From a virus, in the IMG/VR virus record IMGVR_UViG_3300008117_000561, positions 1 to 25,439 of that record: a DNA stretch of 25,439 bases, one strand, 5' to 3'. A program made the translations under genes and the position numbers. The notes under the pieces were generated by a model that had not been told where the DNA came from, did not search any database, and worked only from the letters and a program-made list of their open reading frames with translations. Positions 1,428 to 4,050 of the stretch are shown here, piece after piece (positions within the stretch are counted from its first letter, which is position 1; the number at the start of each line of letters is the position of its first letter).

Positions 1428-1949
1428 GTGTCACTAATACAAGACCTCAGAGCAGAAGTAGATGTAGAACTACTTACACAAACTGGTCTATACAGAGCAG
1501 AAGATACACAAACAAATATCCGCATTGTGGAGGATATCCGCAAGGCAATTGAAAATATGCACAAGAAAGAACCAACACCTAAGCATATAGCAGAGGTTGC
1601 CATAGCAACCAATGAAAATGTACAAATCCGTGACTTCTTAATGGGCATACGCTCAGAGAAGTTTGCTGTTCATAACATATTTGATTACTTACTACTACTA
1701 AGTAGTGCAGTAAACAAAGATGTAGCAATACCACTTACCACTGTATTCTCTACTTATCTTTATGAAGCAAGTAAAGATGAGGCTAAGAGTATTATTGAAG
1801 AAGTCCTTAAGATTAATCCAGATTATAGTCTGGCAAAATTACTTAAGAGAGTATATGAAATAGATGTAGATAGTAGTTTTATCACAAGTATGGGAGAAGA
1901 ACTACATTCTAAAGTTGTAGATGTTATCTATGATAGGGAGGAAAAATGA
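1428..1949 (+). CDS. DUF4192-like protein
   Basis: The GTG start is placed by AAGGAGAC at 1416-1423. The 173-residue product resembles the C-terminal part of actinobacterial DUF4192 proteins: an RDFLMG segment (around residue 68), then a PLTTVFSTYLYEASK helix, then the hallmark EVLKINPDYSLAKLL (about residues 125-140). DUF4192 has no assigned biochemical function. It is a mainly actinobacterial family, so it supports host assignment. Full-length cellular members are longer, and the N-terminal portion here is short and diverged. Its stop overlaps the next start as ATGA at 1946-1949, so it is probably coupled to the DUF932 gene. Confidence 0.6.
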   Translation: MSLIQDLRAEVDVELLTQTGLYRAEDTQTNIRIVEDIRKAIENMHKKEPTPKHIAEVAIATNENVQIRDFLMGIRSEKFAVHNIFDYLLLLSSAVNKDVAIPLTTVFSTYLYEASKDEAKSIIEEVLKINPDYSLAKLLKRVYEIDVDSSFITSMGEELHSKVVDVIYDREEK

Positions 1950-2932
1950 CAACAACTACAGTACCAATAAAAAACTTATCCAATTGGGTTAAGTCAGGCA
2001 CAGCAGTAACAGCAACCTCAGCCAGAGATGTAGCCAGACAAGCAGGTCTTGACTGGTCAGTATCATTGCATCCAATGACAGCCTCATACACAATCCCAGG
2101 CGCAGGTGAACCACTACAGATAGCAGTAAGAAACAAACAAGCCGTAGTTAAAACAACACCTTTTGGTGATGTCAGTAACATCGGTGTTGTTGGTAATCGC
2201 TATCAAGTATTTCAAAACGGTGAATTGTTTAGTGCGTTAGATACACTAATTGATTCAGGCGAAGCCCGTTATGCAGCAGCAGGTGAGTATGATGGCGGTG
2301 CAAAGGTATGGATGTTATTACAATTACCAATTGAAATGACAGTAGCCAATGACCCACACGCTGCGTTTATCCTGGCTAGAACCAGCCACGATGGCAGCAG
2401 TTCAGTCATCATCAAGCCAATCATTGAGCGTTTGTTTTGTGCCAATCAGATAAACAAAATCTATCGGAACAATAACAAATATACATACACATTAAAGCAT
2501 ACGACAAACAGCAAACTTAATATAGAAGAAGTAAAATATATTATGCAGATGTCTTACGACAGTGTGAATGAATATCAAACACTGGCTAATGATTTGATTA
2601 CTAAATCAGTTAGTAGAGAAAATGCTTTGAGATATTTCAAAAGAGTATTTCCATTGCCATCTACTATTGAGGACACACCTCATCATCTGCTCAGCCAGGG
2701 CGAAAAGAATCAGTTAAGTCGTGCACTTACAGCACGGAACATCGCCCAGAATATCTATGAAAATTCTCCCACACAGGAGAATATCCGTGACACGGAGTTT
2801 GGATTGTGGCAATCCATTATTGAGTATGCTGACCACGGCAAACAAGATAAGGGTACAGTCACAGGTGTAAGGGCTATGTCAGGTGGCTCTGATAGCCTAA
2901 AGATTAGAGCACTAGAACTACTAACAGTATAA
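1946..2932 (+). CDS. DUF932 (phage/plasmid-like TIGR03299) protein
   Basis: The 328-residue protein starts four bases inside the previous gene after AGGGAGGAAAA. Features typical of DUF932 are the YTIPGAG / AVVKTTPFGDVSNIGVVGNRYQVFQN segment (about residues 50-95), a FILARTSHDGSSSV strand pair in the middle and FCANQI (about 164-169). The family is common in phages and plasmids, next to replication genes. Its activity is not established. The C-terminus (WQSIIEYADH ... SLKIRALELL) is the conserved end of the family. Family membership is confident; function is unknown. Confidence 0.8.
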   Translation: MTTTTVPIKNLSNWVKSGTAVTATSARDVARQAGLDWSVSLHPMTASYTIPGAGEPLQIAVRNKQAVVKTTPFGDVSNIGVVGNRYQVFQNGELFSALDTLIDSGEARYAAAGEYDGGAKVWMLLQLPIEMTVANDPHAAFILARTSHDGSSSVIIKPIIERLFCANQINKIYRNNNKYTYTLKHTTNSKLNIEEVKYIMQMSYDSVNEYQTLANDLITKSVSRENALRYFKRVFPLPSTIEDTPHHLLSQGEKNQLSRALTARNIAQNIYENSPTQENIRDTEFGLWQSIIEYADHGKQDKGTVTGVRAMSGGSDSLKIRALELLTV

Positions 2933-2942: not shown

Positions 2943-3095
2943 GTGGAATATCTATACACAGATACAGACGGTAATCAAATAGCAGAGTCAGAAGACGATG
3001 CTTACCAAATAGTTGAAAACGGAATTCAATTAGAACTAGATGGTGGTTCCGTTGATGATTGGTCGTTAGATATTACAAGCACTGACGAACAATAG
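2943..3095 (+). CDS. Small acidic protein, 50 aa
   Basis: The GTG start lies one base after the AAGGAGACTAA element, so the Shine-Dalgarno core is about five bases away. The product is very acidic (about 16 of 50 residues Asp/Glu) and has a repeated look (TDTDGN, ESEDDAYQ, LDGGSVDDW). It is the last gene before the structured leader. Small acidic early phage proteins sometimes mimic DNA or inhibit host factors, but nothing here identifies a target. Confidence 0.6.
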   Translation: MEYLYTDTDGNQIAESEDDAYQIVENGIQLELDGGSVDDWSLDITSTDEQ

Positions 3096-3279
3096 TATTG
3101 GCAGGCTGTTATGTGGGTGGTCTAGTCAGCCACTAAGGGGACCACATAATTACCAATGCCACGCCAAAAAGAATGGTGTCATATACCCTTCCGTCTGATA
3201 CCATTCTCTAAAGAGAACGGGTTAGTTCTGATTAGTCTCCTTTCTAATCCGTTCTCTCTTAGAAGGAGACAAGGACCCA
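3096..3279 (+). promoter_or_regulatory. Structured leader of the nuclease gene
   Basis: This is the longest gap in the left operon. It holds three consecutive hairpins: A, 3109-3116 with 3142-3149, enclosing GTGG (3117-3120) with CCAC (3130-3133); B, 3170-3181 with 3196-3207, 12 pairs with one G-U; and C, 3212-3225 with 3244-3257, 14 pairs with one G-U. The 18-base loop of C contains TTAGTCTCCTTT, complementary to the Shine-Dalgarno of the gene that follows. No promoter boxes are obvious and no reading frame of note is present. Confidence 0.7.
3235..3270 (+). promoter_or_regulatory. Alternative hairpin sequestering the nuclease Shine-Dalgarno
   Basis: GTCTCCTT (3235-3242) pairs perfectly with AAGGAGAC (3263-3270), the ribosome-binding site of the gene at 3280. 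After a single bulged T3243 the pairing continues with CTAA (3244-3247) and TTAG (3259-3262), 12 pairs in all with an 11-base loop. This helix shares bases 3244-3247 with hairpin C, so the full forms exclude each other. The pattern is that of a translational on/off switch or a pseudoknot. Confidence 0.6.
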
Positions 3280-4050
3280 ATGGGACAATTACAAATTGAA
3301 CGTGATAGATACGGAAGACCGCTAGTTAAACCACCCAAAGGTGGTAAACCAATTGCATACACAAGGGCTACAACAATAGCCAACAGTCTTGATGACCCAT
3401 CAGCATTGACCGCTTGGAAGATGCGTATGGCAGCAATAGGTTTAACAATACGCAGTGATTTATTATTAGCAATTAACGCGTCGCAAGATGACAAGATGGC
3501 TATTAATAAATACATAGAAGATGCAATGGAAGTAGCAGGTGCTAGTCGTGCAGCCACGATAGGTACAGCACTACACGCATTTACAGAAAAGTTAGATTTA
3601 GGACAAGAACTAGGTCTTATACCAGATGAGTGGGCAGGGGACATTCGTGCCTACGAAGAAGCAACAAAGCAACTAGATAAAATCTTTATAGAACAATTCT
3701 GTGTGTTAGATAAATATAAAATTGCTGGCACACCAGACAGACTTGTTGAATATAAAGGAGAAAGATTCATTGCAGATATAAAGACAGGTCGCATAGACCA
3801 TCCAAACAACATAGCAATTCAATTAGCAATCTATGCTAACGGGTTGCCTTATGATGTGACAACGGCAACCCGAGGTAAATGGGGTGAAGTTAACAAGGAT
3901 AAAGCAATCATCATACATCTTCCTGCAGGTACAGGCTTGTGTAAATTAGTCTGGATTGATATTGCAGAAGGATGGAAAGGTGTACAATTTGCAATGAAGG
4001 TAAGACAATGGCGAGACAAAAAAGGTCTTGTCGTTCCATTCACAGAGTAA
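3280..4050 (+). CDS. Cas4/RecB-like PD-(D/E)XK nuclease
   Basis: The 256-residue product has the RecB-nuclease motifs in order: GTALHAF with His99, then GTPDRL with Asp153, then FIADIKTGR with Asp166 and Lys168, then QLAIYANG with Gln181 and Tyr185. This set defines the Cas4/RecB/AddB-type fold, a metal-dependent exonuclease or endonuclease acting on DNA ends. Actinophages commonly carry such a gene near replication genes, where a role in recombination or replication-fork processing is presumed. I see no Cys cluster like that of iron-sulphur Cas4 enzymes. Translation is probably controlled by the preceding structured leader. Confidence 0.8.
   Translation: MGQLQIERDRYGRPLVKPPKGGKPIAYTRATTIANSLDDPSALTAWKMRMAAIGLTIRSDLLLAINASQDDKMAINKYIEDAMEVAGASRAATIGTALHAFTEKLDLGQELGLIPDEWAGDIRAYEEATKQLDKIFIEQFCVLDKYKIAGTPDRLVEYKGERFIADIKTGRIDHPNNIAIQLAIYANGLPYDVTTATRGKWGEVNKDKAIIIHLPAGTGLCKLVWIDIAEGWKGVQFAMKVRQWRDKKGLVVPFTE

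Follow-up and report, generated by a model that had tools for sequence, protein, structure and literature searches.

Pseudoknots that hide a ribosome-binding site are known both from riboswitches and from the operators of ribosomal-protein genes. The SAM-II fold is a small H-type pseudoknot which sequesters the Shine-Dalgarno (SD) sequence, and the rpsO leader serves autoregulation of a ribosomal protein, S15. In the class I type III preQ1 riboswitch, an AAGG Shine-Dalgarno motif was described as occluded inside an H-type pseudoknot of the leader (PMC11625349), and the SAM/SAH riboswitch was described as a small H-type pseudoknot in mRNA leaders (PMC7367207). A pseudoknot was also reported in the translational operator of the E. 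coli rpsO leader (PMC3014915). Phage examples of pseudoknots in translational control are few according to the same account, which in 2010 regarded T4 gene 32 as possibly the only viral pseudoknot engaged in translational autoregulation. In gene 32, the knot precedes a ribosome-binding site that is itself unstructured, and it nucleates gp32 (PMC3014915, PMC535899). Riboswitches were called rare in phages in a report on the glutamine riboswitch of phage Melnitz (PMC9004378).

The predicted pseudoknot considered here, PK1, lies in the leader of a nuclease gene in the window, i.e. the whole analysed stretch of DNA, a virus record of 25,439 bases. It has the same SD-occluding H-type layout as that described for the class I type III preQ1 riboswitch, but differs from the preQ1 family in having no Rfam match, in a stem 1 (S1) whose sequence is not conserved, and in its position before a phage nuclease instead of queuosine genes. 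SAM-II and SAM/SAH are small H-type leader pseudoknots like PK1, which differs from them in the genes that it precedes and in having no sequence match in Rfam. With gene 32 of T4, T2 and RB69, as portrayed in the accounts cited above, it would share the phage mRNA, the 5' location of the knot in the operator and the translational control of a recombination or replication gene. However, PK1 contains the SD sequence within the knot, contrary to the open-SD layout of gene 32, to which a second pseudoknot found in related phages, PK2, is closer. Both PK1 and the rpsO knot lie in (putative, in the case of PK1) translational operators, that of rpsO serving ribosomal-protein autoregulation; their sequence relation was compared through Rfam. 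The Melnitz riboswitch, as reported, is likewise an RNA switch carried by a phage, but its ligand class is known and it controls ssrA rather than a nuclease. The leader analysed here was not found described in the titles and abstract openings listed by the literature searches.

Materials and methods

Loci were collected by three protein searches of IMG/VR, from which the best 80 of 227, of 348 and of 566 relatives were taken, as well as from one pattern search, three annotated phages and the window's own locus. The sample comprised 260 loci with the nuclease and 94 distinct leaders, or 89 without the loci known only from the pattern search. The detector of the pseudoknot arrangement called for stem 2 (S2) including the SD core, and for an S1 of at least 6 pairs with its 3' arm starting at most 3 nt from S2.

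Compensatory changes in S1 were counted on an alignment of 54 leaders (nuclease identity at least 74%) that was not fitted to the structure, using a tree of the nuclease gene; leaders devoid of the motifs had been removed beforehand. Alignment A4 has the same identity limit, and both this test and A4 omit L120, L264, L273-L275, L313 and L336, with L088 added, and the 54-leader test is also without L158, whose gene is short. Alignment A5 omits L313, L268, L270 and L324.

Results

The product of the gene downstream of the leader (Table 1) matches the exonuclease profile phrog_466 with E = 1.3e-62, as expected of a Cas4-like phage exonuclease, and Pfam PDDEXK_1 with E = 7e-4 only, below the gathering score. 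It is followed in the window by a gp49-like gene and a DnaB-like helicase. Its annotated relatives, 514 records all below 60% identity (the best listed at 43.5%), come mostly from phages of Mycobacterium, Streptomyces, Gordonia and other Actinobacteria, and the phage lineage carrying these leaders is probably actinobacterial. A glycosyltransferase is also encoded in the window; two isolates from freshwater 'Ca. Nanopelagicales' were reported to encode glycosyltransferases (PMC10202952), a likeness that is only suggestive. Comparison of a 2.2-kb region with the phage collection revealed no DNA similarity, and no relative was present among the 111 pattern stretches obtained when genome contigs were scanned with alignment A1.

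Table 1. Leader elements and neighbouring genes in the window
Feature	Positions	Strand	Remarks
DUF932 gene	1946-2932		phrog_1221; upstream of the leader element
50-aa frame	ends at 3095		upstream of the leader element
Inverted repeat B	3170-3207	+	AGAATGGTGTCA (3170-3181) with TGATACCATTCT (3196-3207); 12-bp stem
Proposed extended -10 promoter, TGATACCAT	3196-3204	+	TGnTAnnnT; +1 presumably near 3211
S1 5' strand (left arm of C)	3212-3225	+	inverted repeat, pairing check, covariation
L1 loop, TTCTGATTA	3226-3234	+	3.1 changes per column vs 6.7 in the S1 5' strand
S2 5' strand, anti-SD GTCTCCTT(T)	3235-3243	+	pairs with 3262-3270; slowest-changing segment
Hairpin D as first drawn	3235-3270	+	final four pairs incompatible with the top of C; window's group only
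S1 3' strand (right arm of C)	3244-3257	+	inverted repeat, covariation
L3 linker, S1 to SD	3258-3262	+	3262 able to add a ninth S2 pair (G-U)
S2 3' strand, SD AAGGAGAC	3263-3270	+	pairing check
Cas4-like PD-(D/E)XK exonuclease, 256 aa	3280-4050	+	own SD covered by the leader fold

Two hairpins had been drawn in the preliminary description of this leader: C (3212-3225 with 3244-3257, 14 pairs) and D (3235-3247 with 3259-3270, 12 pairs and one bulge), sharing bases 3244-3247. A pair-by-pair check reproduced both of them, with 13 Watson-Crick pairs and one G-U pair in C and a T as the bulged base in D, and the clash between them is exact in the window. The calculated energies are -19.7 kcal/mol for C as a hairpin and -13.5 kcal/mol for D; C is the sole inverted repeat of at least 12 nt reported in 3000-3400, and the fold of the 205-nt leader has z = -3.5, with none of 200 shuffles equally stable. 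The loop of C carries the anti-Shine-Dalgarno GTCTCCTT, complementary to the nuclease's own AAGGAGAC, which is located within D and S2, 9 nt 5' of the ATG at 3280. The proposal that the SD of the nuclease is covered by structured RNA is supported, and this covering is kept by many relatives.

As the core of D (3235-3243 with 3262-3270, 8-9 pairs) is free of overlap with C, the two can coexist as a pseudoknot. Judged from the relatives, C and D are not rivals but would form a single H-type pseudoknot, with C as its stem S1 and D as its stem S2; this was the option named last in the preliminary description, and it is the form favoured by the comparative data. We consider it very probable that the pseudoknot forms. 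If C were fully paired over its 14 pairs, no more than 5 nt (3258-3262) would be left to cross it, and for this reason the outer pairs of C probably fray in the pseudoknot, in agreement with what had been guessed previously; a full pseudoknot would be strained by the combination of a short L3 and a long S1. The calculated energy of the S2 duplex is -12.1 kcal/mol, as compared with -9.7 kcal/mol for the SD paired with an assumed 16S tail.

The S1 fold is supported by covariation in the alignments. In the 54-leader test, 29 compensatory events fell in six stacked columns (37-42/78-73), spread over five pairs, while no window of 200 simulated alignments gave a sum above 8; the number of pairs affected also reached 5 in the simulations, hence it is the event count that stands out. 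When pairs were tested one by one under stricter conditions, S1 supplied five of the six best-ranked pairs, with individual values of E = 0.06-1, none of them significant. In A4, which has 55 leaders in 48 distinct rows, each of the 12 S1 pairs had changed in both strands, and the covariation score was 0.373 vs 0.060-0.208 when the structure was slid. In A5 (20 leaders, the 62-65% group) this was true of 7 of 15 pairs; two of the five measures were within the range of shuffles there (118 and 405 of 500), and the structure score of 0.210 was nearly equal to the 0.208 obtained on sliding by +1, which we ascribe to poor alignment of the outer stem. Moreover, S1 is wholly rewritten, and the anti-SD kept, in L200, L247, L260, L309 and the L312 group, the arms being, for example, GTTGCCCAG/CTGGGCAAC (L200), GTGCGGGCTAGTT/AACTAGCCCGCAC (L309) and AGCCCCTGG/TCAGGGGCT (L260).

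Covariation, which had been suggested as a check of C and D, was found for S1 only; compensatory changes were present in none of the S2 pairs (0 of 8 in A4, 0 of 7 in A5). Covariation could hardly be expected in S2, both partners of which are bound by function. The pairing between the stem-1 loop and the SD of the next gene is nevertheless conserved: 99.3% of S2 cells are paired in A5 and 94.1% in A4, the latter being slightly low because the loop of L030/L033 is misaligned in A3 and A4, as is the SD in L200, in L309 and in the L247 group. The anti-SD changes most slowly of all segments (0.8 changes per column), followed by L1 and the SD (3.1 each), S1 (6.7-6.9) and L3 (7.7); the family consensus of L1, read by eye, is about UUU[UC]GRYU. 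S2 is the weak link of the model, for which conservation, position and near absence at other genes speak rather than covariation. On contigs of the 74-100% identity group, AAGGAGAC accounts for 154 of the 284 AAGGAG sites that belong to other genes and is thus the commonest SD form, and consequently the SD itself is not adapted to the PK1 loop; the idea of such a special adaptation was rejected. As a separate observation, the PK1 loop is an exact complement of this phage-wide SD.

The detector found the pseudoknot arrangement in 71 of all 94 leaders; one obtained from the pattern search, L120, was missed owing to the start chosen. Whether related phages keep the pairing, on which the preliminary description had made its claim depend, received a divided answer: among leaders from protein searches it is kept in 67 of 89, but 5 of 16 at 70-80% nuclease identity and 9 of 9 below 50% are without it. 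The remaining classes gave 39 of 40 (at least 80%), 15 of 19 (62-70%) and 2 of 5 (50-62%), both positives in the last one, L328 and L329, being at 61.9%. Given 0 of 9 below 50% and the five absences at 70-80%, the nuclease does not need PK1; four of these five leaders carry PK2 instead. The arrangement, with a bulge or longer junction, was also seen by eye in L033, L301, L291, L316, L268 and L270, which are not in the counts. By comparison, other genes of these contigs had 772 leaders with an SD, and the detector was positive in 3 of them, one of which (L270) is itself a nuclease leader with another start chosen, and in 11 of 1880 leaders whose upstream part had been shuffled.

Twenty contigs were searched along their full length with R1, a covariance model combining S1 with sequence. 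One strong copy was found in 14 of them (E at most 5e-9), a weak copy only, at the nuclease leader, in G013, G014, G015 and G017 (E = 0.016-0.08), and no copy in G016 and G018; a second copy of the pseudoknot was found in none of the 20. The second R1 match in G011 (E = 4e-6) is to another hairpin, which lacks the anti-SD and has TACCTGC as its loop. The view of PK1 as a general phage element was rejected, given one strong copy in 14 of 20 contigs and other matches that represent the loop-TACCTGC hairpin. The latter is GC-rich and lies directly 5' of an SD; further matches to it (E = 1e-4 to 0.02) occur 3.2-4 kb upstream of the nuclease in other loci, and its sites include L070:1173-1235, L050:1271-1332, L063:1043-1104, L065:1153-1214, L068:977-1039 and L120:343-403.

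In a pattern scan with L1 and the anti-SD fixed and S1 left free (TTTTGGCTNTCTCCTT..AAGGAG), 112 of the 117 matches read precede the nuclease. Four more stand before another PD-(D/E)XK nuclease, and the last one is truncated where its contig ends. TTTCGGCTNTCTCCTT occurs in 118 places among the matches listed: 67 have an S1 of at least 6 bp, and 61 of these precede the nuclease, as compared with 0 of the 51 places without S1. The pattern GTCTCCTT..AAGGAGAC without S1 was discarded as mostly chance, with 25 of 151 strand-matches in 75 loci before the nuclease, among the matches listed. In L585 and L592, which have PK1 leaders, ATC is present at the expected ATG, followed by an apparent nuclease frame.

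Of the 71 pseudoknot leaders, 57 have an extended -10 motif, TGnTAnnnT, in the 24 nt preceding S1; the motif was found in 2.9% of pieces after shuffling and in 114 windows out of 6740 taken at random. Its distance to S1 is 4-15 nt, most commonly 9 nt (26 of 57); in the window, S1 starts at 3212 (motif in Table 1), and in the L312 group TGCTATGAT lies just beyond the 24-nt region scanned. The proposed -10 was absent from the output of a generic two-box promoter scan of the window. Judging from the conservation of the -10, the transcript would start at S1. The motif sits inside the 3' arm of inverted repeat B, for which stems of at least 8 bp are present in 36 of 62 distinct leaders vs 7.5% of shuffles. 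The arms of repeat B vary among relatives yet remain complementary; the repeat may be an operator, an RNA hairpin or a site of processing.

In L481, L496, L538 and L544, PK1 precedes another PD-(D/E)XK nuclease, which is divided between two reading frames. L481, L538 and L544 share with the window the gp49-like gene located next, while L496 ends earlier. When the L544 halves were compared singly with the window nuclease, one aligned with E = 0.096 around DIKTG and the other gave no alignment, which indicates no clear similarity at the sequence level. In L313, the pseudoknot (E = 2e-6) stands before an inserted 69-aa gene. Since it is kept before the split nucleases and the L313 gene, the leader is apparently a property of the slot and not of one particular protein. 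The L313 gene (L313:2706-2986), located between pseudoknot and nuclease, has a signal-like N-terminus, and its SD is the one covered by the knot.

PK2 is a compact 34-nt H-type pseudoknot with the consensus UGGGUKG..CCGC..GCGAACACGG. In leaders of the L337 type, it replaces PK1 behind the same kind of promoter and leaves the SD open. Its carriers include L337 (4870-4906, minus strand), L340, L345, L355 and L359; the form GATGGGTGGTCCCGCCATCTGCGAACACGGGAC is found in the PK1-lacking leaders L336 and L273-L275 of the 70-80% class, farther upstream of the start in L273-L275. The 23-nt core occurs in 103 IMG/VR stretches. In 39 variants, the helices S1 (columns 4-9/19-24) and S2 (13-18/33-38) have 99.4% of cells paired, though the variants were gathered with patterns fixing GGGT, CCG, GCGAA and CACGG, so that these letters are constant by construction and constant pairs uninformative, whereas the varying pairs were free. 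In either helix, three pairs have changed in both strands, which amounts to covariation in both helices; the covariation score was 0.533 vs at most 0.124 when slid, and two of the five measures (pairs changed, pair types) were not above shuffles. Among 81 distinct contexts, 25 precede the nuclease, as recognized by its N-terminal sequence; several additional genes are preceded by PK2 in other contexts, e.g. those beginning with MARGNGRTINVK.., MNTI.. and MTTATINVPKKN..; the -10 motif lies 4 nt before the matched core in 29 and a start codon 17-28 nt downstream in 68. No Rfam match to PK2 was found in seven carrier loci, one 37-nt variant was not found in the phage collection, and no PK2 was detected in the window by the patterns tried.

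The statement that the leader corresponds to no named RNA family was borne out, as Rfam gave 0 matches at the gathering cut-off over the whole window. At E up to 10, the single match of 3050-3330 was to tp2 (E 4.5) and concerned the opposite strand, and at E up to 0.1 eight relatives yielded one match, to an unrelated miRNA model (L268 230-278). None of the Rfam matches, either in the whole window or in 3050-3330, is to a known family of RNA thermometers, and the assignment to a known Rfam riboswitch (preQ1, SAM-II or other) was rejected because no covariance model matched the leader.

Discussion

On the basis of the S1 fold, the anti-SD conserved in its loop, the presence of the element at this slot and its near absence elsewhere, we estimate at about 75% the probability that a 5'-terminal pseudoknot acts as a cis-acting translational repressor of the nuclease. 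Transcription would start from the extended -10 promoter located some 8 nt upstream, as its conservation suggests, and the nuclease mRNA would begin with hairpin C. The U-rich loop of C ends in the anti-SD, and its pairing with the nuclease SD would close the H-type pseudoknot in the cell. The 30S subunit would have to open S2 before initiation, which should lower its frequency, and the nuclease might in consequence be made sparingly or late. Repression of this kind needs no ligand, since the loop complements a strong SD. Relief might most likely occur through competition by ribosomes, or through a phage or host protein reading L1, which could alternatively make base triples; we hold repression of translation as the main role to be just as probable as stated above, and grade any named regulator lower.

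An alternative would be that the knot, placed at +1, protects the 5' end of mRNA by blocking 5'-to-3' decay, covering of the SD being a side effect. The expected start near the base of S1, with the -10 at 4-15 nt and mostly at 9 nt, would suit such a function, as would the whole clade in which PK2, a different, covarying pseudoknot, occupies the same place and leaves the SD free. However, protection alone would not make the anti-SD the best-conserved segment, and we find this explanation rather unlikely. In a more speculative reading, to which we assign a low probability, mRNA of the nuclease slot starts with one of two unrelated knots, PK1 or PK2, and it is this 5' knot, not the gene, that is recognized by a common regulator or step of decay, as PK1 outlasts exchange of the nuclease; abundant phage mRNAs might then open PK1 in trans, because its loop matches the phage-wide AAGGAGAC. 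The architecture of PK1, with the SD in the second stem of an H-type pseudoknot, is equally that of a ligand-binding translational riboswitch, in which L1 and the deep groove of S2 would form the pocket and a metabolite would stabilise the closed state, as in preQ1 and SAM-II. L1 is conserved though S1 is rewritten, and its U-rich sequence beside A-A of S2 would allow U-A-U triples. Metabolite riboswitches sit before several genes of a pathway, while PK1 has one strong copy, at the nuclease, in 14 of 20 whole contigs and a second one in none; the lack of an Rfam match and the nature of the repressed product, a DNA nuclease, also speak against a riboswitch, which we regard as unlikely.

Tight linkage of the leader to its gene might indicate autorepression, with the nuclease binding its own leader, and T4 gp32, as described, provides a phage precedent that acts via a pseudoknot (PMC3014915, PMC535899). 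Exchange of the gene under the same leader argues against binding by the gene's product in the gene 32 style: the split nuclease in L481, L496, L538 and L544 and the 69-aa protein in L313 suggest that the leader goes with the slot and make autorepression quite unlikely. The two-state switch between mutually exclusive hairpins C and D, put forward in the preliminary description, has in its favour the exact clash at 3244-3247 in the window, but relatives keep the non-clashing core and not the clashing pairs. Seventy-one leaders have both the loop motif and the SD motif; a five-pair extension of S2 was found only in that of the window (L081) and in L030; the additional pairs of L030, which alone matches the length of the extension, fall before S1 begins, and the clash is thus confined to the window's group. 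We therefore abandon the switch as very improbable. Finally, the repeats might be features of DNA only, operator or terminator palindromes resembling RNA stems, and repeat B does overlap the -10. Unlike an operator, the S1 arms covary without a common sequence, and the terminator reading was rejected, no intrinsic terminator (a GC-rich hairpin with a T run) being found in 3050-3350; this explanation is the least credible of all.

If repression by PK1 is the correct reading, it raises the question of how phages delay or dose a DNA nuclease able to harm their own replication. The element is an RNA widespread among phages, with strong covariation and no Rfam family match, and it is tied to one nuclease slot.

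A separate matter is a small cysteine-rich reading frame noticed by eye in this region. Positions 3096-3198 of the window contain its apparent relic (..QCHAKKNGVIYPSV stop), with no start; L063 and similar relatives have a seemingly longer version, which ends inside repeat B. A small cysteine-rich frame was also seen between the nuclease halves in L481, L496 and L538, and not in L544.
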